DNA from: Colwellia sp.
GTDB taxonomy: Bacteria; Pseudomonadota; Gammaproteobacteria; Enterobacterales; Alteromonadaceae
Assembly: GCA_022969175.1 (NCBI GenBank)
Contig: JALJPB010000017.1
Location: forward strand, 1-64,000
DNA length: 64,000 nucleotides
Reading direction: 5' to 3'
Numbering within the stretch: the stretch's first letter is position 1; each line of letters opens with the position of its first letter. Made by a program: the position numbers and the translations under genes. Under the pieces are notes generated by a model that had not been told where the DNA came from, ran no database searches, and saw only the letters and a list, made by a program, of their open reading frames with translations. Positions 13,582 through 24,240 of the stretch are shown here, one piece after another.

Positions 13582-15792
13582 TTATTTAATAAAACTATTG
13601 TCTGGAGTACCTGAAAAACACGCCAATATATAGGGGTAGTCATGGGTAATATAATAGCCATAAACCCCATTTACCAACATACCATTGCACTCATCTAAAT
13701 CACCTAACCCTTCAACATATTCATAGTCATCACGATAAGTTCCGTCGTAAATTCCACCAGGATCACCGACTCCAGCTGAGCGATCACCAAATTTTAAACG
13801 ATAACTCGATTGCGCTTTGCGAACAGCCCCTTGATCGTCAAAATTAGAGCCAAATATAGGAAAGCCATCAGCGGCAAAACCTACAACAGGGGATTCTTGG
13901 TTATCGTTATCATCAAATAATGCCAAAGGGGAACCATGATAATGATATGTACCATCGGGTTGTGCATGAGCATTATGAGAATCAACGGCAAAGCCATTAG
14001 CTTCAAACATAGGATCATAACGCCAAGGTTGGCTCATTTCATTACAACCAACTTTTCCATTACCTATGCCATAACAACCAGCCGCTAGTAGGTCTACTTT
14101 TACGCCATTAAGCATAATAGCGTTATCTACTTGCAACGAAATGCTGGTTGACTGTATTGCGATAGTCGGAGAAGTTGTAATTTCAAAAAGATCATTTTGC
14201 ACACTGACGTTATTTGGAAAAGCATTGCCACCATCATTAAAATCATGGTTAGGGATAGCATTGGTTTGGAAGATACATTTATCCCCTACTTGAGAGATTT
14301 TTAAATCACCATAAAAGACAAGACCATTGTTTACATCATTCACTGTAGAGGTAAATTGTTCAATGTAATCAATGCAGTTTTGGCTTTTACTATTCAAAAT
14401 CGTGTTGGTGATATCGATAGGACTAATTGATTCACCGCCATGAATGAGTTCTGCAAAATGTTCTAAATTAGTTAACTGTTCGAGCAACTCGGTATCAATA
14501 GTAGGTAACAAATTAATTGTTTCAGCAAAACTATCTACTAATGAAAATAGCTCTTGAGTGCCATTATCAAATTCGATCAGTTTGAAATTGTCAGAACGAG
14601 TTGTCCACCCCGTTACACCTTCTGACTTGTACGCTGTATAGACATAATTTCTGTCATAACTTCCCTCATCTGATAAAAGTGCTTTAAAGCTTTGGCTATC
14701 ATGTATTTTAGTTTCAGTTATCCCTGCGATATTAGCAATTGTTGCAAACAAATCTGTCGCAGTAACTAAAGCATTTTCTCGCTGATTAATTCGTGAAACC
14801 CCTTTACCAGAAACAATAAATGGGGTGGCAATGCCACCTTGATACAAACTACCTTTAGCATGTGAGGCACTGTAAGTTGTAGCATCAATGACACCTTTGG
14901 GTGTTCCATTATCACCGATAAAAATAATAATGGTGTTTGCGCGGGTTTCCTCATCAAGAGAATTGAGTAAACGTCCAATCTCAGTGTCCATTGCCTCAAT
15001 TGCAGCTAAATAATATGCACGCTTATTGTTATTTATGTCTGAATCCGTACCTGGTAAGTCTCGCTCATGAAGTGACTCTGGTGGTAAATGAAACGGAGAA
15101 TGAGGTGCTGAATAGGCAAGCCATACAAACCAAGGCGATTGTTGTTCACTTATCCAGTTAGCCGCTAAATCGGTAATTTTGGAAGAGTGATATTCTGTTA
15201 CTGCTTCTGTGACCCCATTGATGGTTAATGGCCAATCGTAATAATCTGATAAATTCTCTAAATTACCCGCATAGTGATCAACACCTACATCATTGGGATG
15301 GGTATCACTGCCACTGCCTGTACCTAAATGCCACTTACCAAAGACGGCAGATTGGTATTGCTCTGTGACTTCGTTATGCTTTAAGTACTGTTGCAGTATT
15401 TCGTGATCCGCTGATAAATTCGCCGGCAGAGATTCTATGCCGCTATTCACACCAAATTTTCCAGTGATAATAGTTCCCCTAGTTGTAGAACAAGCAGGTG
15501 TTACCCACATATTTTCAAAGGTAAGACCTTGCTGCGCCAATTCATTTAAAGTAGGAGTGAAAGGTAGATCTTCACTTAGACTATATTGAGCTGATGCATC
15601 AAGCCCTTGATCATCCGAGATGATAAATAACACATTGGGTGCTTTATTTTCATTAATTGGTATTTCTGTTTCTGGAGTTTCAACTACTTGAGGTACTGTT
15701 TGAACACTAGTCGGTTCATCATTACTACTACCACCACAACTTACTACTAGACCAATAATAATGAATAAATAGAACATTCTGCTTTTGTACAT
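13582..15792 (-). CDS. sulfatase-YHYH fusion lipoprotein
   Basis: A 736-residue lipoprotein (lipobox VVSC followed by GGSS). ATG at 15792 is preferred to the upstream TTG; AGGTAG lies upstream. Residues about 50-430 are an alkaline-phosphatase-superfamily sulfatase: metal-binding SDDQG, the nucleophile region PACSTTRG, GKWHLG and GDNGTPKG. The active-site motif reads C-S-T-T-R where the formylglycine consensus is C-x-P-x-R, so the proline is missing. Residues about 520-735 form a YHYH domain (GTYHYHGSP, GFPIFG, DECNGM, YPYILACFSG). Substrate unknown. It faces the PadR pair convergently across the long palindrome. Confidence 0.88.
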   Translation of the reverse strand: MYKSRMFYLFIIIGLVVSCGGSSNDEPTSVQTVPQVVETPETEIPINENKAPNVLFIISDDQGLDASAQYSLSEDLPFTPTLNELAQQGLTFENMWVTPACSTTRGTIITGKFGVNSGIESLPANLSADHEILQQYLKHNEVTEQYQSAVFGKWHLGTGSGSDTHPNDVGVDHYAGNLENLSDYYDWPLTINGVTEAVTEYHSSKITDLAANWISEQQSPWFVWLAYSAPHSPFHLPPESLHERDLPGTDSDINNNKRAYYLAAIEAMDTEIGRLLNSLDEETRANTIIIFIGDNGTPKGVIDATTYSASHAKGSLYQGGIATPFIVSGKGVSRINQRENALVTATDLFATIANIAGITETKIHDSQSFKALLSDEGSYDRNYVYTAYKSEGVTGWTTRSDNFKLIEFDNGTQELFSLVDSFAETINLLPTIDTELLEQLTNLEHFAELIHGGESISPIDITNTILNSKSQNCIDYIEQFTSTVNDVNNGLVFYGDLKISQVGDKCIFQTNAIPNHDFNDGGNAFPNNVSVQNDLFEITTSPTIAIQSTSISLQVDNAIMLNGVKVDLLAAGCYGIGNGKVGCNEMSQPWRYDPMFEANGFAVDSHNAHAQPDGTYHYHGSPLALFDDNDNQESPVVGFAADGFPIFGSNFDDQGAVRKAQSSYRLKFGDRSAGVGDPGGIYDGTYRDDYEYVEGLGDLDECNGMLVNGVYGYYITHDYPYILACFSGTPDNSFIK

Positions 15793-16181
15793 CACCAACT
15801 ACCTATTAATGAATTGCAAATACCATTTACTCTCTGTCAACTGAAGTATTTGGTACTTATGAGATATAAAAATTGTAGCAGAAAAAGGTGTAAAGTTAAG
15901 GGAACTGAAGCTTTAAGCGAGTAAAGTTATGTAAATTAAGTAATAAACAAATACCAAGTTCTATTGCTAATCTTGAACCATTTTACTCATCAATAATTCA
16001 AATTCAGTTTTAGTTTAATCTGCTAAATTGAAGGTTTATTGACAGAGAAATAGATTTAGATTTATTTTAACTTTTAACCAATTGATATCAGAAAAATTCA
16101 ATAAGGTAAAAAGATGATGATATCCATCAATTATTGAAATTTGCGTTATACTTATTGAAAAGTGAGCAATTGTATCGAGTT
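15793..16181. other. intergenic stretch, no gene seen
   Basis: About 390 A+T-rich bases between the sulfatase start and the next plus-strand gene. It must contain the sulfatase promoter on the minus strand and a promoter for the 16182 gene (a TTGACA occurs at about 16039). No RNA gene, repeat or conserved reading frame was recognised. Confidence 0.5.
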
Positions 16182-16780: not shown

Positions 16781-17374
16781 TTAAGTTAATTGTGAATAAA
16801 GTAAAAGGCACGAGGTCACCATCAAAAGCCCTCCCATCATTTGATTAAACCGCTTTAACTTAAACTCACTATCTAAGAATATTGCTGCTTTATTACCTAA
16901 TACAGACCAAGAGAAAAGCGATAAATAACAGACTAAAAAATAAACCATCGAAAAAGTTAAAAACTGTTGATGACTATTCGGTGAAGAAAACAAAGAAACG
17001 CCAGCCATACAAGCTATCCATGCCTTAGGATTTAACCATTGTAATAAAAAACCTTGTAGAAAAGTTGGTTGTTTAAGATCTTTAATAGCTAACTTGGATC
17101 TTGATGTCGCTATTAAATAGCCCAGATAAACAATAAATAGCGAACCAAAAACTGCCAAATATTTAAGGAAATAAGGATATAAATCAATAATTTCAGTAAA
17201 GCCTAACCCAATGAATAACAACAAAAATGTGAAACCAATGGTGCCACCCGAAACGAACGAAAATGTTTTACGCACGCCATAATTTACTCCTGATGACAAA
17301 ATGACCATATTCACTGGCCCTGGTGTAATTGACATAACCAATGAGAATGAAAACATTGCAATGAATACCGACAT
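16781..17374 (-). CDS. LysE/RhtB-family amino-acid exporter
   Basis: A 197-residue inner-membrane protein with about six hydrophobic segments. The N-terminus carries the family motif TPGPVN (residues about 17-22) and the central WLNPKAWIA block typical of RhtB/LysE exporters. It is divergent from a LysR-type regulator across a 102-base gap, the usual arrangement for LysE-type exporters and their activators. Likely exports an amino acid or derivative; the neighbouring PLP decarboxylase may be metabolically linked, but that is inference. Confidence 0.9.
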   Translation of the reverse strand: MSVFIAMFSFSLVMSITPGPVNMVILSSGVNYGVRKTFSFVSGGTIGFTFLLLFIGLGFTEIIDLYPYFLKYLAVFGSLFIVYLGYLIATSRSKLAIKDLKQPTFLQGFLLQWLNPKAWIACMAGVSLFSSPNSHQQFLTFSMVYFLVCYLSLFSWSVLGNKAAIFLDSEFKLKRFNQMMGGLLMVTSCLLLYSQLT

Positions 17375-17476
17375 AACTATTCCTCTGAATTTTTGTACAC
17401 TATAGCGCCACTTTATTCATCAGATAAGGTGCTACAATTAAACTTCACTGTTCTAAATGATTAAACAATCAAAATA

Positions 17477-18346
17477 ATGATAGATGAATTACGATCAATG
17501 GCAATTTTTGCTGAAACGATAAAACAAGGCTCTTTCAGAGGTGCGGCAAAAGAGCTAAAGCTTTCGCCTTCAGTTGTTAGCTACCAAATTACACAATTAG
17601 AAAAGTCTGTTGGTGCGACTTTGATATACCGGTCGACAAGAAATTTATCGTTATCTTCAGAAGGAAAGGTACTTTATCAATATGCGTTAAGTATGATAAC
17701 AGCGGCTCAACAAGGCTTAAGCCAACTAACATCAGAACAACATGAACTAAGAGGTACTTTAACCCTCACACTTCCTTCAGCCTTAATCAAATCAGATATA
17801 AATATAAAAATAGCTAAGTTTTGTAGATTGCACCCTTATTTGAATTTAAAATTAATTTATACCGACAATAGGCAAAATCTAATTCACAAAGGCATTGATC
17901 TAGCTTTTAGAGCCGGAAAAATGGATGACAGTAACCTGATGTGTAAGCGGATCGGTGACATTAATAGAAAGTTAGTTTGCTCTTTGGATTATTTCAAAGA
18001 AAATAATCAGCCAACTTCTGCTTCCGATTTAACAAAATTGAATTGGATAAAGCTGGATATGCTGCCGAATCACAGAAAGCTGATAAACTCTGATGGTGAA
18101 AAAAGTGAGATTAGCTTTGAAAGCAATGTAAGTGTAAATAGTGTTGAAGCTATGACTCAGCTTTGTATTAATGGTGTAGGGGTAGCCACCCCACCCGACT
18201 TTTTAATCAACAGTGAACTTAAAAGTAACCATTTAGTTGAGTTGTTACCCGAATGGCAAGTTGAATCGATTCCTCTATATGCGGTTTGGCCGAATAATAT
18301 TTTTCAAAGTAGTAGCGCAAAACGTTTATTAGACTTTTTATTATAA
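17477..18346 (+). CDS. LysR-family transcriptional regulator
   Basis: A 289-residue regulator with the LysR N-terminal helix-turn-helix (FAETIKQGSFRGAAKELKLS, residues about 10-30; SVVSYQITQLEKSVGATL next) and a C-terminal periplasmic-binding-protein-like effector domain. It belongs to the CrgA-like subgroup by general layout. Divergence from the LysE-type exporter suggests it controls that gene. Downstream it ends 20 bases before a decayed mmcQ fragment. Confidence 0.9.
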   Translation: MIDELRSMAIFAETIKQGSFRGAAKELKLSPSVVSYQITQLEKSVGATLIYRSTRNLSLSSEGKVLYQYALSMITAAQQGLSQLTSEQHELRGTLTLTLPSALIKSDINIKIAKFCRLHPYLNLKLIYTDNRQNLIHKGIDLAFRAGKMDDSNLMCKRIGDINRKLVCSLDYFKENNQPTSASDLTKLNWIKLDMLPNHRKLINSDGEKSEISFESNVSVNSVEAMTQLCINGVGVATPPDFLINSELKSNHLVELLPEWQVESIPLYAVWPNNIFQSSSAKRLLDFLL

Positions 18347-18365: not shown

Positions 18366-18465
18366 TTAGTCCATTTTACTTACCACCAGCCTATACGAAT
18401 ATCCATCATGCGTTCAATTTCACCTTGAGTAATTGAACCATAGATGACCCATTTTGATTTATTCA
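18366..18465 (-). pseudogene. decayed 3' fragment of an mmcQ/yjbR gene (copy 1)
   Basis: On the minus strand this encodes NKSKWVIYGSITQGEIERMM-D, matching NKSSW...GSIPKGEIERMMD of the intact gene at 23830-24240, before a frameshift and early stop. The DNA aligns from TTAGTC to TTTATTCAT at roughly 70-75 percent identity with a short gap. It lies between convergent genes and has no start of its own. Only the C-terminal third of the gene is represented. Confidence 0.8.
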
Positions 18466-18486
18466 TCTAATCATTTGTGCGACGGC

Positions 18487-19851
18487 TTATAGGTTATTTA
18501 GCGCATTAATCACTATTTGAACATCGTCATCAGTAGTTGACCAGTTACTCAGTGCCGCTCTAATAATTGGCTGCCCTTGCCAGCTTCCAGGCGTTAAAAA
18601 TACTTGCCCAGATTCATTCAGTTTAGCAATGCATTCATCGCTAGACAGATTTAACATTGCTAAATTGGGTTTGAACAAGACGACATTTAATTCGCAGGGT
18701 TTAATCAAGACAAATTTATCTGACTCGTTTAACCAAGTTGCTAAGATTCCTGCCTGATGGATATTAGCTTTTATATTTTCTCTCACGCCATTACGGCCAT
18801 ACGCCATTAAAGTAGCCCAAACCGGAAAAGCACGAAAACGACGTGAATTCTCAATGCCAAGCGACATAAAGGGAATATCACTTTCAGAGCCAGCTAAATA
18901 AGGCGCAGTAACTTCACAACAGGCTTGCAGTAATGGAAGGTGTTTCGTTAAAAACACACCACAATCATAAGGCACGTTCAGCCACTTATGACAATCTAAG
19001 GTAATGCTATCAGCATGTTCTATGCCTTTAGTTTTCCCCTCTGTTCCTGAAATTAACCTTTCAAAAATGCCGAATGCAGCGTCAACATGAAGCCAAGCAT
19101 TATACTTTTTACACAGTGCTGAGATAGCGATAAGATCATCATAATCGGTACCTGTTACCGTGGCTGCACTGGCAATGACAATTTTGCTGTGAGCGCTGCA
19201 CTTCATCAATGCTTTTTCCAATGCCACTACATTCATTGATTCTTCATCGGTATTACATGAGATAGCCTGCCAATTATCTTGGCCAAATCCAGCTAAGCCT
19301 AAACTTTTAACCATGCTTGCATGTGGTGTAGCGCTAAAGATACTCACTTCTAAGTACTTCATGCCTGACTTTGCTACGTCAATTCCTTGTTGCTGCCCGG
19401 CATATTGGCGCGCAGTAAACGCAGCTAACAAATTTGCAGCAGTTGCCCCTGTGGTAAAGATACCTTTGAACTTTTGTGGCAACTGAAATAGTTCGCATAA
19501 CCAAGTTAAAGTTTGTTGCTCTATAGCGGAGGCAACTGAGTCACCTCCTTTGGAAACATTTTGATTAAATGTAGTAACAAGCCAGTCGGCATAAGTAGCA
19601 ACAGGGTTAGCACCACCGGTAACAAAGCCCCAATATCTGCCACCATTGCTTGCTGATAGGCTAGGTTGCACGCTAGTTTCAATAAACTGATCGAGCTTTT
19701 TAAAGCTCATCCCCTGTTCAGGAAACTCAATAGCCAAGGGCTCTAACTGCTTACTGGCCACATCTCGTTGGTTAAGTGTTTGATGAAAAACAGAAAACTG
19801 ACGTGATAGTGCGTCCAATATTGTTTGGTTCATTTGGGGAGAATAGTGCAT
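18487..19851 (-). CDS. PLP-dependent group II decarboxylase
   Basis: A 454-residue enzyme; ATG at 19851 chosen because the 52 codons upstream are not family-like. Fold-type I PLP domain: TGGANPVATYADWL and SKGGDSVASAIEQQTL near the N-terminus, substrate/cofactor histidine region ATPHASMVKSLG, DAAFG (aspartate binding the pyridine nitrogen), and the Schiff-base lysine in DCHKWLNVPYDCG. It resembles pyridoxal-dependent decarboxylases of the glutamate/aromatic amino-acid group; the substrate is not evident. It is divergent from a MocR-type regulator 90 bases away, which probably controls it. Confidence 0.88.
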   Translation of the reverse strand: MHYSPQMNQTILDALSRQFSVFHQTLNQRDVASKQLEPLAIEFPEQGMSFKKLDQFIETSVQPSLSASNGGRYWGFVTGGANPVATYADWLVTTFNQNVSKGGDSVASAIEQQTLTWLCELFQLPQKFKGIFTTGATAANLLAAFTARQYAGQQQGIDVAKSGMKYLEVSIFSATPHASMVKSLGLAGFGQDNWQAISCNTDEESMNVVALEKALMKCSAHSKIVIASAATVTGTDYDDLIAISALCKKYNAWLHVDAAFGIFERLISGTEGKTKGIEHADSITLDCHKWLNVPYDCGVFLTKHLPLLQACCEVTAPYLAGSESDIPFMSLGIENSRRFRAFPVWATLMAYGRNGVRENIKANIHQAGILATWLNESDKFVLIKPCELNVVLFKPNLAMLNLSSDECIAKLNESGQVFLTPGSWQGQPIIRAALSNWSTTDDDVQIVINALNNL

Positions 19852-19902
19852 GCTGAGTTTCACTTTATTGAAAGATGTTATTAGTTTATGCTTAACAGAA
19901 TA

Positions 19903-19943
19903 AGATAACAGATACAGATTCCAACAAAAATTAGATAACAGAT
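19903..19943. promoter_or_regulatory. 11-bp direct repeat, possible MocR operator
   Basis: AGATAACAGAT occurs at 19903-19913 and again at 19933-19943, start to start exactly 30 bp (about three helical turns). MocR/GabR-type regulators are known to bind direct repeats in divergent promoters, so this is a plausible operator. The second copy overlaps the regulator's ATG. A related TTAACAGAAT lies at 19892-19901. Confidence 0.45.
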
Positions 19944-21342
19944 GCGTGTAACAGTAAAATACATAACACTTGCTAGACAGGTTATTGCTAGTATTGAAAA
20001 AGGGCATATTGAGGCAAACTCAAAATTACCTTCACTTAGAGTTTTTTGTCAACTGCATTATATAAGTATGACAACTGCACTTGCTTGTTATCGCTATTTG
20101 GAGCAGCACGATTACATTATTGCCGAATATAAAAAAGGCTACTATGTTCAGCCAAAAAAAACTGAAAAAAGGATCGTAAATTTCCCAACATTTCAAAGCT
20201 CTGTTAGGACAAAAGTTATAAGGCCTGAATTACAAGCTGATGTGATTGGCAGACCTTCTTTAGCTACCGCACAACTTGATGCAAAGTTAATTGATGATGC
20301 TATGTTAAAACGCAGTTTTAGAGCGATAACTAAACAGGCTGATTTCACCTTGAAATATGATGAATCTCAGGGTAACCAAAGACTTAGAGAGCAGCTATCA
20401 AAACATTTTAACAGCCAAGGGTTTTCATGTCCCCATGAAGACCTTGTTATCACTCACGGCTGCCTTGACGCAGTTTTAATGGCCTTGGAATGTGTTAGTA
20501 AACCCGGTGACGTTATTGCTATTACCTCGCCTTGTTACTCAGGATTATTAGACTTGTTATCCGTTTTGGACAGAGCAATATTAGAAATACCCAGTACCGC
20601 TGAAGGTATTGAGTTAAAACAGTTAGAGCAAGCAATGAAAGGGAAAAAAATCACCGCTTGTTTATTAACTGCTAATCATCAAAACCCGACGGGCCACAGC
20701 TTGAGTAATCAACAAAAACAACAGTTAGTTGAACTTGCCACTCAGTATAAAATCCCAATAATTGAAGATGACGTTTTTAGAGAAATAAGTCATCAACGAA
20801 CAATACCGCTACCTTTGAAATACTTTGATCAACATGGCTGGGTAATGTGGTGCAGCAGTGTTTCAAAAACCTTAGCCCCTGGCCTGCGAATTGGTTGGTG
20901 TTTGCCTGGACGCTTTAAAAATAAATATATTCAGCAACGCATGATACGAACACTTGGTCACAATCAGCCAATACAACTAGCCTTGGCCGATTATATTGCC
21001 AATGAGTATTACGCAGCTCATATAAAAAAGGTTAACCGAGCACTAGCCGTTCATTGCTCTGATTATATCGAATTTTTACAGCTTCATTTACCTAAGGAGT
21101 CAGAGATATTTATACCTAATGGCGGTTTGGTACTTTGGATAAAAATTTCGAAGGTAAATACGGAAAAGCTAACAACAATATTATTACAACAGGGCATTGA
21201 TATTAAATCTGGAAACCTATTCTCGACAACTAAGTTATATCAAGATTGTCTGCGATTAAATATAGGTCAAATCCCTACTGAACAAATATATTCGCAGCTA
21301 GCGTTATTATGTAAATTGGTTCAATGTGAAACCAACAGATAG
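19942..21342 (+). CDS. MocR-family regulator (GntR HTH + aminotransferase domain)
   Basis: A 466-residue chimeric regulator. Residues about 8-70 form a GntR winged helix (QVIASIEKGHIEANSKLPS, then YRYLEQHDYI). Residues about 95-460 are a fold-type I aminotransferase-like domain with the ANHQNPTGHS block, EDDVFRE, and the PLP lysine in SSVSKTLAPGLRIGW. Such proteins sense amino compounds through PLP. It is divergent from the PLP decarboxylase, its likely target. No clear Shine-Dalgarno precedes the ATG, but the HTH begins at the expected distance. Its last codons run into mmcQ fragment 2. Confidence 0.9.
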   Translation: MRVTVKYITLARQVIASIEKGHIEANSKLPSLRVFCQLHYISMTTALACYRYLEQHDYIIAEYKKGYYVQPKKTEKRIVNFPTFQSSVRTKVIRPELQADVIGRPSLATAQLDAKLIDDAMLKRSFRAITKQADFTLKYDESQGNQRLREQLSKHFNSQGFSCPHEDLVITHGCLDAVLMALECVSKPGDVIAITSPCYSGLLDLLSVLDRAILEIPSTAEGIELKQLEQAMKGKKITACLLTANHQNPTGHSLSNQQKQQLVELATQYKIPIIEDDVFREISHQRTIPLPLKYFDQHGWVMWCSSVSKTLAPGLRIGWCLPGRFKNKYIQQRMIRTLGHNQPIQLALADYIANEYYAAHIKKVNRALAVHCSDYIEFLQLHLPKESEIFIPNGGLVLWIKISKVNTEKLTTILLQQGIDIKSGNLFSTTKLYQDCLRLNIGQIPTEQIYSQLALLCKLVQCETNR

Positions 21343-21392
21343 GAATATCCATCATTTGTTCAATTTTACTATGGAATTGAGCCACTGAGGAC
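21337..21392 (-). pseudogene. decayed 3' fragment of an mmcQ/yjbR gene (copy 2)
   Basis: The minus strand encodes broken pieces of the same segment: GSIP, then after a two-base deletion IEQMMD, corresponding to GSIPKGEIERMMD of the intact gene. The plus-strand text GATAGGAATATCCATCATTT aligns with GATACGAATTATCCATCATC of the intact copy. It begins in the last codons of the MocR gene and is the shortest of the fragments. Confidence 0.65.
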
Positions 21393-21734
21393 TAACGAGT
21401 TACATTGTGATTTAATTTTAGGTGTCGATTAGCCATAGTTAAATTAGTAATCATTAATATTCAGCCACATAAAATCACCATTAACGAGTCAATAAAGCTA
21501 TGAACGGACGACTGAAGTTTTGCACGCTATTTCAATAAAAAGTATAAAATCACCATTTTCAAAATTATAAACTGCTAGGTTGACTTAAAATAAAATTGGC
21601 TTTAGAATCGGTTTCAGGTTGCAGAGACGCCTTTTCCGCCAAAGATGAATTCACTCTGATATCCAATATTAAACGGTTCAATACGAACTAAGTAGGCTTT
21701 GCGGAATGCCATTTATACTTAGAGGAATTGAATT
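21393..21734. other. intergenic stretch with one 32-codon frame
   Basis: About 340 bases with no confident gene. On the minus strand 21614-21712 reads as a 32-residue frame (MAFRKAYLVRIEPFNIGYQS, then EFIFGGKGVSAT and a stop). Its composition looks protein-like, but it has no clear ribosome site and may be a relic or part of a dispersed element. The rest shows nothing recognisable. Confidence 0.35.
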
Positions 21735-21965
21735 GTGACTTCACAAAAAAAATCTCAGATAAGATCCAAACTCGATACTAATAACCCAATTATTTTACCT
21801 ATTAATAAATTAAACCGACTCTGGTTTTGTCAAATAACTCTGTTGTTAATTTGTTTTTCTGTCTTCAGTAAATACAGTCTATTGCCATCATCTACTTTTG
21901 TCACAAGCTGTGATTTTTCGCTGGCTGATAGTCTTTCCTTCCATGTAACAGTTCAACTGAAATAG
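21735..21965 (+). CDS. doubtful small membrane protein
   Basis: A 76-codon frame from a GTG preceded by AGAGGAATT. It contains one hydrophobic segment (about residues 29-44) and no recognisable motif. It ends nine bases before the next gene. Codon use is unremarkable and the frame could be fortuitous, so it is listed only as a possibility. Confidence 0.3.
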   Translation: MTSQKKSQIRSKLDTNNPIILPINKLNRLWFCQITLLLICFSVFSKYSLLPSSTFVTSCDFSLADSLSFHVTVQLK

Positions 21966-21974
21966 GATGACATA

Positions 21975-22505
21975 ATGGAATTTGCATTAAATGAAGTTAA
22001 GACACAAGCTAAAAAGTTGTTAAAAGCAATCAGAGTAGATAGCGAATTACTGCCAAAGATGGAGCTAGCTTTAAAAAAATTAGGTTTATCATTATTAGAT
22101 GAAATAAAGCTAAAACACTGCTTAACTATTGTCTCTCAACAACTAGGTTTTGATAATTGGCACCATGCTCGGGATGTTTTATCTGGCAGTAAAAACCCCG
22201 TTGAGGCTTTAGATATGGGAACATTATTCTACCCCAAAGGTGCTGACAGCTTTATCAATGAGTGGTTTGCAAATTATCAACAAGCTAAAAACACCTTGTC
22301 AGAGCAACCAGCAGGAAAGTGGCTACTTCCTTATAAAAACCAGTTTATAGTGGTAAAAAAAGACTATATTTCAACATTCAGGCTTGATGCAAATTTGACG
22401 CTATTATGGCCTGATATCGACCATAATATGGTTGAAGGTTACAAAAGTATCGCATGGGATAAATTAACTTGTGAGATTATAAAAAACAGATCAAGAAACT
22501 ATTAA
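21975..22505 (+). CDS. unknown protein with glyoxalase-related N-terminal motif
   Basis: A 176-residue protein with ATG after AGGATGACATA. Residues about 5-70 (AKKLLKAI...LKHCLTIVSQQLGFDNWHHA) resemble the small helical module found at the N-terminus of some glyoxalase-superfamily and plasmid-borne proteins, where a helix ends in QLGFxxWHxA. The C-terminal half has alternating strands with several tryptophans and no motif I know. Soluble, no signal peptide. It sits in the remodelled zone between mmcQ fragments 2 and 3, so it may have arrived with them. Confidence 0.7.
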   Translation: MEFALNEVKTQAKKLLKAIRVDSELLPKMELALKKLGLSLLDEIKLKHCLTIVSQQLGFDNWHHARDVLSGSKNPVEALDMGTLFYPKGADSFINEWFANYQQAKNTLSEQPAGKWLLPYKNQFIVVKKDYISTFRLDANLTLLWPDIDHNMVEGYKSIAWDKLTCEIIKNRSRNY

Positions 22506-22519
22506 TTCTAGCTAACTAT

Positions 22520-22560
22520 AAAATGACCAAGATCGACGGCTGATCTTTCTTGGTCATTTT
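22520..22560. terminator. hairpin at the edge of mmcQ fragment 3
   Basis: AAAATGACCAAGA (22520-22532) and TCTTGGTCATTTT (22548-22560) form a perfect 13-bp stem around a 15-base loop. The right arm belongs to the mmcQ-like fragment; the left arm lies outside it. A/T ends on both sides make it a plausible bidirectional terminator for the convergent genes. Confidence 0.65.
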
Positions 22561-22645
22561 ACTTACCACCAAGCTCTTTATACAAAATAAGTAATGGTCC
22601 ATCATCCGCTCAATTTATCCTTTCGCGATGGAGTCATCTAAAATA
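22537..22645 (-). pseudogene. decayed 3' fragment of an mmcQ/yjbR gene (copy 3)
   Basis: The best preserved fragment. 22537-22571 matches 23851-23885 of the intact gene at 31 of 35 bases, and 22598-22645 matches 23900-23947 at 45 of 48; between them 26 bases replace 14. Similarity ends abruptly at CTAAAATA, where the stop codon of the peptidase gene lies (22638-22640), so that gene's last codons are made from mmcQ-derived sequence. This points to a recent rearrangement junction. Confidence 0.9.
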
Positions 22646-23624
22646 CGCCTAAATATTCTTTAGCTAGTTTATGAGCTGCGTCTAAGCTCAAATTGGCCGT
22701 GGTATGTAAATCAGGTATCACACCAATTTCCGCCCAATTTGTATTTGTGGTTGGGTGCAATGGAATAGCTATTGGAATATTTAAACTGATGTAATCGTTT
22801 ATTTTTTGCTTTTGCATGACATAAGCAATACCCATTGTTTCCTCACCGACGATAACTGCTTTTCCTAGATGCTTAAGGGTGTAGCTAAAAAATTCCCCCG
22901 AACTTGAAAGAAACGACGATGTGAGTATATAAATGGGGAAGTTATGCTTAAACTTATCATTGCCATGATTTTCGAGCGCTCTTAGTATTTTTCTCTTATT
23001 TTGTTTGTCATACAGTATTTCGCTTAATATTGTGTCTTCTTTGGCAAAAAAACTCATTAAATATTGAGCTAGAGATATCGATTCCCCCTCTGCATCACGT
23101 AAATCGATGATCAATGCGTCCACCTTAGACAGTTTTCTTAATGTGCGAAAAACCTCTTTTTCTGCCTCAGGGTGTTGATAAAAGTGATTCAGCTTCATAT
23201 AGCCAACATTCCCTGAAAGGATGTCTACATTATGAATTCCAAAATTTTCCTTGTGATCTAATTCACTTTTGTCTTGTGCTTTTTCAATAATAAAGAAAGG
23301 TTTAGTTTCAACAATATCGAGGTACATATCACCACTAACATTTCGCATAATTGCATTAATGCTTATTATAAAAGAATACCAATCACTAATTCCGTCAAAC
23401 TCATTTCTGGTTAATTTCTGTTTCAATTCCTTTTCTATTAACAATGCTTTTTCTGGATAAATATAATTTTTGTCTAAAGCATTTATTACACCGACTATTC
23501 CCAGCTTTATTTGATGTTTAGTTAATTGTTCATTTAAATTTTCAACTTCTAATGCCGATGCTTGCAAAACAACCATGCTTAACAAAAACAAGTTTAGGAA
23601 TAAGAATTGTTTCACTTTTTTCAT
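22638..23624 (-). CDS. secreted S41-family (TSPc-like) peptidase
   Basis: A 328-residue protein from the ATG at 23624, which starts a signal peptide (MKKVKQFLFLNLFLLS..., cleavage near ASA-LE); GAGATT lies upstream. Residues about 25-120 resemble the S41 N-terminal helical domain (LDKNYIYPEKA). The tail-specific protease core shows IDLRDAEGES (about residue 180) and TSSFLSSSGEFFSYTLKHLG (about 235-255), where S41 enzymes place the nucleophilic serine, then VGEETMG. There is no PDZ domain. Related proteins act on unknown periplasmic substrates. Its final codons lie in mmcQ fragment 3. Confidence 0.85.
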   Translation of the reverse strand: MKKVKQFLFLNLFLLSMVVLQASALEVENLNEQLTKHQIKLGIVGVINALDKNYIYPEKALLIEKELKQKLTRNEFDGISDWYSFIISINAIMRNVSGDMYLDIVETKPFFIIEKAQDKSELDHKENFGIHNVDILSGNVGYMKLNHFYQHPEAEKEVFRTLRKLSKVDALIIDLRDAEGESISLAQYLMSFFAKEDTILSEILYDKQNKRKILRALENHGNDKFKHNFPIYILTSSFLSSSGEFFSYTLKHLGKAVIVGEETMGIAYVMQKQKINDYISLNIPIAIPLHPTTNTNWAEIGVIPDLHTTANLSLDAAHKLAKEYLGVF

Positions 23625-23829
23625 TTTATCTAATCTCATATATAAAGAAATTTTCTCAACAAACGTCATTTAGCGAGTTTGAATAAAATAAGTGCCAGCT
23701 TTACTTGGAGTCATGGCTAAAGCTAGCAATATACCAAGGACTATTAAAGCTTAAGAATGAAGGGGTTTATTGAAAAAAATCAAGGTTTATTATCATTTCG
23801 TAAGGCTAAATATAGCAGTGTAGCATTAG

Positions 23830-24240
23830 CTACATATGCATAAGAAGTGACTGCTGATCTTTCTTAGTCATATTACTCACCACCATCAGATACGAATTAT
23901 CCATCATCCGCTCAATTTCTCCTTTCGGGATGGAGCCATCTAAAATAATCGAGTTCCAAGAAGATTTATTCATATGATAGCCGGGGATCACCGACGGAAA
24001 AATATCACGAAGCATCACAGCTTCATCAGGATCACATTTCAAATTCATCCAAAAATGTGTTTTCGCCTCATCGCTAGTTTTAGCACTTTTTGCCGTTGAA
24101 CCGTGAGCAATGGTGGCAAACATTTTATTTTTAACTTTGAATACTTTGACATCATCACCGAAGGGGTAATAAAGACTGGTTTCAGGCTTTGCCAGTAAAT
24201 AGGCTTGTACTTGAGTATCATCCATAGGAGGGTTCGCCAT
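23830..24240 (-). CDS. MmcQ/YjbR-family protein, intact copy
   Basis: A 136-residue small soluble protein of the MmcQ/YjbR (CyaY-like fold) family: MDDTQVQAYLLAKPET at the start, then FKVKNKMFATIA, LKCDPDEAVMLRD, GYHMNKSSWNSIILDG and the C-terminal GEIERMMDNSY. Family members are putative DNA-binding or general stress proteins with no settled function. Its 3' third is the source-like sequence of three decayed fragments within the preceding 6 kb. It is followed upstream by a TonB receptor remnant on the same strand. Confidence 0.9.
   Translation of the reverse strand: MANPPMDDTQVQAYLLAKPETSLYYPFGDDVKVFKVKNKMFATIAHGSTAKSAKTSDEAKTHFWMNLKCDPDEAVMLRDIFPSVIPGYHMNKSSWNSIILDGSIPKGEIERMMDNSYLMVVSNMTKKDQQSLLMHM

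Follow-up and report, generated by a model that had tools for sequence, protein, structure and literature searches.

The 3′ end of yjbR (mmcQ/yjbR family) is, with a probability that we put at roughly 0.8, a site-specific integration hotspot at which cassettes stack up together with copies of the gene's tail, likely served by large serine recombinases (LSRs). Many marine Colwellia-type bacteria seem, judged from sequence comparison, to carry small foreign cassettes stacked at one exact spot of this gene. In marine relatives of Colwellia and Thalassotalea this would amount to a chromosomal locus that takes up genes one at a time, for functions as diverse as toxin-antitoxin, signalling, peptidases, sugar metabolism and, in two LSR elements, anti-phage defence, with the tail copies as a record of each arrival. 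A first-pass annotation of the window, by which we mean the whole 64,000-nt stretch of Colwellia sp. DNA, had proposed repeated cassette insertion at, or recombination within, this gene end. Repeated insertion is supported by a fixed crossover, recurring half-sites, cassettes shared across genera and an empty site, all of them legible in the aligned sequences, as are LSR genes beside the crossover. To that proposal the present analysis adds a likely enzyme class, the LSRs, and known parallels in SCC and the ssrA islands.

In the window the target gene is intact: yjbR lies at 23830–24240 on the minus strand and encodes 136 aa (Pfam YjbR PF04237, E 1.1e-27). Position-by-position alignment puts the inferred crossover core YAA, here TAA, at 23966–23968 (minus strand), in the Asn-Lys codons of the motif PGYHMNK. 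Using a nucleotide profile made from 36 related yjbR genes, one of them interrupted (L044:3626) and the window gene left out, we found the gene itself at E 3.5e-111 in the 64-kb window and, on its 3′ side, three tail copies, all on the minus strand: copy 3 at 22502–22644 (E 1.3e-21), the eroded copy 2 at 21331–21414 (E 5.9e-9) and copy 1, the most distal one recognised, at 18372–18466 (E 5.7e-17). This leave-one-out profile confirms the intact gene and the three co-oriented C-terminal fragments described in the first-pass annotation; no more decayed tail rose above chance elsewhere in the 64 kb, where the next best profile match stood at 0.64. Copy 3 matches the window gene in two blocks with 91% (22593–22645) and 89% (22535–22571) identity, in agreement with the earlier figure of about 90%, and copies 1 and 2 are less similar. 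Compared with its homologue in G362, copy 3 lacks the core and the left half-site, and the stop codon of the S41 peptidase gene directly abuts the tail. Neither of the two readable left flanks in the window reaches the half-site threshold: the flank of copy 1 (18467–18494, minus strand) scores 12/17 for class A, for which the threshold is 13, and the flank of copy 2 (21415–21446, minus strand), which occupies the half-site place, scores 9/17 for class A and 8/14 for class B and belongs to neither. A protein search of the own genome gave three matches, namely the gene and copies 3 and 1, all inside the cluster, and no yjbR copy outside it; the search missed copy 2 and is therefore of limited reach for eroded copies, and the assembly is 85% complete in 198 contigs. 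Within this reach, the idea that the tail is an ordinary genome-wide repeat is unsupported in the own genome.

Different modules separate the successive copies, just as first described. Cassette 1 is a gene for an S41-family peptidase (22638–23669, minus strand), relatives of which occur at the yjbR arrays of G158 and G362 and in the distal flank of G376. Cassette 2 (21975–22505, plus strand), an unclassified 176-aa gene with no Pfam or NCBIfam match, is found again right behind yjbR in G025 (L039), with a DNA match of 86.6% over 983 nt, and is also part of the G414 array. Cassette 3 contains, by domain and family comparison, a PLP-dependent decarboxylase (18487–20007, minus strand) and a MocR-type PLP regulator (19942–21342, plus strand), a gene pair that is seen again in G135, as its first cassette, and in G192, within the distal flank. 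The LysR regulator and LysE-type exporter of the distal flank (16781–18346) could be a further cassette or the ancestral flank. The neighbours of the tail-less G008 locus, which we take to be prmA, dusB, purH and a sirohaem-synthase-like gene, gave no match when sought in the window.

The loci examined, which include arrays of C. piezophila and Colwellia sp. RSH04, contain 73 tail-only copies from 35 genomes, in arrays of up to five, and all 58 tails that could be scored, on stretches with yjbR or its body, lie on the gene's strand and downstream of it. The start of the tail falls at profile positions 246–260 in 52 of the 73, before this common boundary in three and after it in 18. Nine other partial yjbR matches were seen, including six gene bodies cut at the crossover; these six are the only tail-less bodies, and all are cut at the core. 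One partial copy (L078) begins at position 196, left of the core. For the crossover mapping, 54 tails and the six interrupted bodies were matched position by position to 35 full genes. The similarity of the tails to yjbR amounts to 93–96% at core positions 7–9 against 43% at position 6, is about 80% at positions 0–5 and approaches background further left; that of the interrupted bodies is 100% at positions 3–9 and drops thereafter. Most tails start, and the six bodies stop, at the same YAA in the Asn-Lys codons, and on this alignment evidence the crossover is fixed to three bases near the end of yjbR. A second copy of the last 150 nt was present within the locus for 22 of 26 yjbR ORFs, compared to 7 of 532 other ORFs that served as control. 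The genes between the yjbR copies are unrelated, 44 of the 66 intervals hold just 1–2 ORFs, the median interval is 2.1 kb, and many tails are eroded.

Two half-sites turn up repeatedly left of the crossover and hardly ever in flanking controls. Half-site A (at least 13/17) was found at 27 of 54 tails and 1 of 270 controls, half-site B (at least 11/14) at 9 of 54 tails and 0 of 270 controls, both classes having been read from the same tails in which they were counted; 16 of the 54 tails have neither. G053 carries a half-site that resembles A. Searched for exact class A sites, an 84,980-species collection gave 17 matches, every one in a Colwellia or Thalassotalea record. Fifteen of these adjoin a yjbR tail and two are followed by non-yjbR sequence. 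Most of the contigs concerned had already been used in defining the class; on the four independent ones, 4 of 6 sites lie at a tail. When three mismatches were allowed in ten whole genomes, eight of nine matches lay at yjbR arrays by their coordinates, the ninth (G000:C178, three mismatches) lay elsewhere, and a reversed control pattern gave no match in the same scan. Viral contigs contained no exact class A match.

The cassettes themselves are common to different genera, where they sit at differing array positions. Protein families present in at least two genomes number 47 if distal flanks are counted and 19 if they are not, and several cassettes match nearly end to end: G418_c0 1–612 of 612 with G328_c0 16–610 of 610, G135_c0 49–2822 of 2875 with G000_c2 53–2824 of 2863, and G000_c1 5–985 of 1084 with the stretch right behind yjbR in G025. 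In shared cassettes the 5′ tail is more alike than the 3′ tail in 12 of 13 scorable pairs (28 tried), these pairs being hand-picked and not independent. The first-pass annotation had proposed searching related genomes for the same tail beside different genes and for empty sites. Both exist: the same yjbR tail flanks different genes, the same cassettes stand at yjbR in other genera, and the distal flanks of G101 and G094 match the tail-less G062, starting 82 nt past yjbR.

Full LSR elements of 7.0, 13.2, 14.2 and 22.6 kb are present at the site. All four elements with both ends recovered (G282, G330, G110 and G053) have an LSR ORF that starts 48–72 nt from the crossover and encodes Resolvase, Recombinase and Zn-ribbon domains. 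The dyad of the putative attP is significant in three of them (G053 23/28, G282 20/28, G110 16/28) and not in G330 (11/28). With a full attP as their site, these elements disrupt yjbR; the small cassettes have a hybrid site made of half-site and tail. A tblastn search of all loci with the G053 LSR detected LSRs in the four elements and in no other cassette, and the window genome gave no PF07508 LSR match, its own array being one in which no LSR was found. The four LSRs do not form one clade, as supported branches force three label changes in a tree that carries long-branch warnings. Elsewhere, 23 LSR places in 394 genomes across the order have yjbR within flanks of about 1.5 kb only in the case of G053. 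As to a phage or plasmid origin, the G282 LSR had partial matches in 19 phage and 19 plasmid records, each of them below 60% identity and none reaching 80% query coverage, and the yjbR matches in such records likewise stayed below 60% identity; this origin was rejected.

Taken together, the array points to a gene-collecting site, probably with LSR service; the enzyme reaction, its action in trans and the choice of the LSR that serves the window are what we infer here. A circle would arrive with a half-site and a yjbR tail of its own. By recombination at YAA this tail would be joined to the body of the resident gene, which thereby stays intact, and the older tail would come to lie at the distal end of the insert. 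Repeated rounds would create the order gene, cassette, tail, cassette, tail, and the 3′ part of yjbR in the window would have been brought by the cassette that arrived last. Full LSR elements appear to insert at this very base, which makes LSRs the likely enzymes. The small cassettes that have no LSR would be mobile only in trans, or they may be remnants of larger elements, and homologous recombination between tails may help them to spread. Points that weigh against the model are the window genome's lack of a PF07508 match, the two window flanks below threshold, the confinement of LSRs to four elements, the tyrosine recombinase gene in G053, the G330 attP with its non-significant dyad, the 16 tails with neither half-site, the two class A sites and the few tail starts that depart from the pattern, and the contrast between full attP and hybrid site.

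Two other histories deserve weight. The junctions between half-site and tail could have been made long ago by recombinases, with the present spread due to RecA-dependent homologous recombination between the roughly 150-bp tails, as might follow natural transformation. The long homology among tails, the small cassettes in which no LSR was detected and the rarity at yjbR of LSRs belonging to this group (by listed coordinates, in 3 of 395 family genomes) fit such a spread, which we nevertheless consider rather unlikely: half-sites recur at the distal ends of cassettes with different genes, suggesting that selection or recent recombination keeps them, and the 5′ tail travels with its cassette, an effect that might in part also arise from homologous exchange within the tail. 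It also appears doubtful that the cassettes are remnants of decayed larger LSR islands, of the CIME or pseudo-SCC type, that no longer move. The large elements at the site and the erosion of many tails, including window copies 1–3 with the core missing in copy 3, speak for this; against it, whole small cassettes match across genera at differing array positions.

That an integron integrase moves cassettes into yjbR as a secondary site is very unlikely. Thirteen of the 17 array genomes searched do contain an integrase over the TIGR02249 cut-off, but these either sit on a contig without the yjbR array or are separated from it by at least 250 kb; four genomes have none, there is none over the cut-off in the window genome, and none adjoins the yjbR platform. 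The attC core follows the rule GTTRRRY, which YAA and the half-sites do not fit when compared by eye, and the crossover is adjoined by LSR genes instead of integron integrases. Tandem paralogues decaying in place, or unequal crossing-over, can hardly account for the arrays at all. A second full yjbR does exist within three LSR elements (G282, G330 and G053), and L078 starts left of the core. Nonetheless, the common start shared by 52 tails, the six bodies cut at the core and the unrelated genes between copies argue against it, and the common boundary, with 73 tail-only copies against nine other partial matches, rules out decaying full paralogues for most copies.

The reading as an LSR-served hotspot invites comparison with known systems. 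In integrons, cassettes with few genes, each closed by a recombination site, line up at a platform site, the newest nearest to it. The yjbR arrays resemble them in topology, with a newest-first order that is probable here, but their site is another one, the locus has no integron integrase, the platform is within a chromosomal protein gene, and the likely enzyme is a serine instead of a tyrosine recombinase. We suggest only tentatively that they form a serine-recombinase counterpart of integrons, in which yjbR is the platform, cassettes cross genera and unrelated LSR lineages converging on YAA act in trans, and in which some LSR elements import a whole replacement yjbR.

Insertion of SCC restores rlmH. 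The yjbR arrays may work like SCC at rlmH and like the Dehalococcoides ssrA islands (PMC3146451), though the target gene is new and the cassettes are smaller. The ssrA islands lie in tandem downstream of one gene end and are bounded by a 20-bp direct repeat of the 3′ end of the tmRNA gene; a conserved 15-bp motif, which cannot be aligned with the gene, sits directly upstream of the repeats, a CcrB-like serine recombinase is used, and 15 islands lack an integration module (PMC3146451). The yjbR arrays share the tandem order, the gene-end repeats, a recurring motif beside the repeat, a serine recombinase and recombinase-less units; they differ in their protein-coding target, in a repeat of about 150 bp that re-creates 45–50 codons, in intervals that mostly hold 1–2 ORFs with no LSR detected in the small ones, and in at least two half-site classes at one site. 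SCC likewise combines an LSR, insertion at the 3′ end of the conserved gene rlmH, direct repeats at the bounds and pseudo-SCC without recombinase (PMC10581047), all of which have their likeness in the yjbR arrays; the latter differ in their Gram-negative hosts, their target, their short median interval and the absence of a ccrA-, ccrB- or ccrC-type recombinase by the cut-offs applied. The LSRs found here match the CcrA, CcrB and XisF models far below cut-off, the best NCBIfam scores of the G053 LSR being 46 bits for CcrA (cut-off 700) and 33.7 for CcrB (cut-off 900). Traits of LSR-type gene-end islands are present, namely an LSR beside the att site in the four elements and tandem direct repeats of a gene's 3′ end.

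The first-pass annotation had called the hotspot unrecognised, and this stands within the literature searched (yjbR or MmcQ with recombinase or island): we found no report combining yjbR with "serine recombinase" or MmcQ with recombinase, and none relevant for yjbR with island, as judged from title and start of the abstract. The arrays offer natural candidates for LSR site pairs whose core is mapped, a test case for serine recombinases as possible drivers of a cassette system, the role that integron integrases fill, and an annotation signature for similar arrays at other gene ends.

Since the array loci (40 regions from 34 of 37 genomes) were mostly chosen for giving several matches, prevalence is not readable from them. 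A less biased sample took one genome per genus, 35 from the family with the own one among them. Of these, 22 gave a yjbR match (E 4e-20 or better), and in six of the 22 (G000, G003, G023, G027, G030 and G034) it is followed downstream, on its strand, by a tail-only match, the one in G023 being weak in that search (E 0.03) and confirmed by the DNA profile. A tail-only match was also obtained outside the family, in G053, whose element additionally encodes a tyrosine recombinase (PF00589, E 2e-27).

The intact yjbR gene (23830-24240, minus strand, Pfam YjbR match) is accompanied by three extra stretches on its own strand that match only its 3' part. All were recovered by a nucleotide profile of 36 related yjbR genes (1 interrupted), from which the window's own gene was excluded: tail copy 3 at 22502-22644 (1.3e-21), tail copy 2 at 21331-21414 (5.9e-9) and tail copy 1 at 18372-18466 (5.7e-17), all minus strand; the best match elsewhere in the 64 kb stood at 0.64. 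This confirms the one gene and three same-strand 3' fragments described in the first-pass annotation, and the modules between them indeed differ: one holds an S41 peptidase, another a decarboxylase paired with a MocR-type regulator, all assigned by Pfam/NCBIfam search, and the remaining one a 176-aa gene for which neither Pfam nor NCBIfam gave a match. The tail is not seen scattered genome-wide, the counter-reading offered there; a protein search of the own genome (assembly 85% complete), which recovered the gene and two of the three window copies, found no yjbR copy outside the cluster.

Such tails are common in relatives. We sought yjbR protein matches in 59 genomes (own included), 395 family genomes and 37 chosen genomes. 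Tail-only matches very often begin at residue 88 or 89 and are mostly found on the gene's strand, at most several kb downstream; in the less biased sample, from the 59-genome search, 22 family genomes have a yjbR match, and 6 of these also have such a tail. From 8 and then 40 more fetched regions, mostly of multi-match genomes, and the window, the profile search returned 117 yjbR features, namely 35 full, 73 tail-only and 9 other partial. The tails begin at profile positions 246-260 in 52 cases, earlier in 3 and later in 18, while the other partial features comprise six bodies (the 5' part of the gene) ending at 257-271, two pieces of one broken gene (locus L040) and one feature beginning at position 196 (L078). 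Wherever a stretch also holds the gene or its body, the tails are co-oriented and downstream (58/58). As a control, the other ORFs of these loci that reach 130 aa were examined: 7 of 532 have a second copy of their last 150 nt, compared with 22 of 26 yjbR ORFs. Two tails, G197:C7:6190-6333 (L071) and G362:C27:1753-1884 (L072), lie on contigs other than that of the main array, and the stretches fetched around them gave no match to the yjbR gene itself; a rearrangement, an assembly break or a second site would explain them.

To locate the crossover, 54 tails and 6 interrupted bodies were aligned column by column against the 35 full genes. At core positions 7-9, agreement of the tails with yjbR is 96, 93 and 94%, and it is still high rightward of them; it is 43% at position 6, about 80% at positions 0-5, which we take to be a foreign half-site resembling ATATG, and near background further left. 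For the interrupted bodies, agreement is complete across positions 3-9 and drops thereafter. The common bases, YAA, lie in PGYHMNK, where Y closes the Asn codon and AA opens the Lys codon that follows. Decay or random duplication as the origin of the tails was rejected because the boundary is too sharp across genera; the same observation refutes, for most copies, decaying paralogues, which the first-pass annotation had named as the alternative to cassette insertion.

Between successive features lie 70 intervals, of which 66 end at a tail without starting at a broken body (median 2.1 kb; 3 of the 66 belong to large serine recombinase, LSR, elements). ORFs of at least 60 aa number one or two in 44 of these 66, none in 3 and more than two in 19, and both orientations relative to yjbR are seen among ORFs reaching 100 aa (84 minus, 74 plus). 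Protein families present in at least two genomes number 19 in tail-bounded intervals alone, and 47 including the distal flanks beyond the last tail, which can include ancestral neighbours. As anticipated, the same tail (73 copies in 35 genomes) stands beside different genes, and the window's cassettes recur elsewhere. The S41 cassette turns up in the fifth interval of G158, in G362 and in the distal flank of G376; G414 has the 176-aa gene, as does G025, where it immediately follows yjbR; and the decarboxylase-MocR pair is present in G135 and in the distal flank of G192. The window's own distal flank holds a Sulfatase-YHYH fusion gene (Pfam; 13582-15798), perhaps an older cassette, with homologues in the distal flanks of the G027, G079, G158 and G346 arrays.

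Cassette DNA matches often span nearly from tail to half-site, both between genera (window interval G000_c1, 5-985 of 1084, vs L039, 1-983, 86.6%; G418_c0, 1-612 of 612, vs G328_c0, 16-610 of 610, 79.8%) and within a genus (G230_c1, 11-1109 of 1109, vs G397_c0, 15-1110 of 1110, 87.7%). Measured against a small yardstick, 160 nt of yjbR body, cassette identity was higher in 11 of 13 picked pairs, equal in 1 and lower in 1. Additionally, where two genomes share a cassette, its 5'-side tails resemble each other more than its 3'-side tails do in 12 of the 13 pairs scorable on both sides (28 tried; the 12 are not independent); mean identities over all scorable tails are 72.6% and 65.6%, respectively, with 65.7% for all inter-genome tail pairs. 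This pattern fits the idea that tail, gene and half-site travel as one unit. The site on small cassettes would be a hybrid, a foreign half-site joined to a yjbR tail, and homologous recombination between tails could contribute. An empty site, which the annotation had proposed to look for, is found in G062: yjbR lacks tails in the 18 kb fetched, and, starting 82 nt beyond the gene, the G062 DNA matches two distal flanks, that of G101 from 5 nt past the last tail (77.8%) and that of G094 from 2 nt past the last tail (72.3%).

To the left of the core are two recurring sequence classes, with consensus close to TAGTAGYGYTAAYGWTT (class A) and GGGTTDATTGTTGC (class B). With a threshold of 13 matching positions out of 17, class A is present in 27/54 tails vs 1/270 controls, which were drawn from 60-300 nt further out; class B, with a threshold of 11 out of 14, is present in 9/54 vs 0/270, and 16/54 tails have neither (B counted from 10). 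The classes derive from the same tails, and these counts thus describe the classes and do not test them. Among the window's copies, copy 1 has a flank that scores 12/17 for class A, and copy 2 one that fits neither class. The place is lost in copy 3, which lacks the core and half-site of its G362 homologue, and its junction is therefore probably no longer a working site. An exact class A scan over 84,980 species gave 17 sites in 14 stretches, all Colwellia or Thalassotalea records. Fifteen of them lie directly at a yjbR tail, mostly on contigs already used in defining the class; on the only new contigs (L082, L087, L090, L092) 4 of 6 sites do so. The two sites off tails (L082:6147-6814 and L090:199-866), followed by other, non-yjbR DNA, belong to a ParE/Phd-YefM toxin-antitoxin cassette (Pfam on L082; L090 ORFs near-identical), which in Colwellia sp. 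12G3 sits on a contig other than that of the yjbR array and possibly marks a secondary integration site.

In six genomes the yjbR body is cut at the crossover. A co-oriented LSR gene directly follows it in G282 (681 aa), G330 (718 aa) and G110 (538 aa). In G053, from another family, an LSR of 501 aa lies at the element's far end beside the tail; this enzyme is less certain because a tyrosine recombinase gene is present in the element as well. No LSR was found in the short stretches available for G355 and G270, whose bodies lie 0.4 and 1.3 kb, respectively, from a contig end. By mapped positions, the crossover lies 48 to 72 nt from the LSR ORF start in all four elements. Unlike the hybrid site proposed for small cassettes, these elements have a full inferred attP, whose halves are inverted repeats in G053 (23/28; 0/5000 random pairs as good), G282 (20/28, p 0.0002) and G110 (16/28, p 0.005), and not in G330 (11/28). 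By eye, the G053 half-site resembles the class A consensus. The four elements break the resident gene, and three contain a second full, diverged yjbR (L044:12588-12950, L052:2205-2618, L038:16224-16583; none found in the G110 element), as if replacing it. Cargo includes PtuA/PtuB (Septu type) with a methylase in G282 (L044:7011-9358) and a type III restriction-modification system in G330 (L051:12170-16982).

In a tree with long-branch warnings the four LSRs are not monophyletic, and thus several lineages may have converged on the same site. Their joint profile (E 1e-30) has matches in 31/395 family genomes; among the yjbR positions listed, an LSR is at yjbR only in G282, G110 and G330, all three built into the profile. 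None was found in the window genome (85% complete). The closest match in kind is the set of tandem islands at ssrA in Dehalococcoides, where 20-bp gene ends are repeated with a 15-bp motif lying upstream of them, the recombinase is CcrB-like and 15 islands lack an integration module (PMC3146451). SCC at rlmH, with pseudo-SCC, is another parallel (PMC10581047). Literature on yjbR or MmcQ with a recombinase or island, within a scope excluding most subscription papers and all supplements, held nothing on the site.

Finally, two cysteine-rich proteins, alike by eye (L122:3406-4356 and L053:6463-7518), lie near two related LSRs, one in G437 away from yjbR and one in G110 at yjbR, and are perhaps a conserved LSR partner. 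Away from yjbR, an integron integrase over the TIGR02249 cut-off is present in 13 of 17 array genomes searched (G027, G110, G230 and others).
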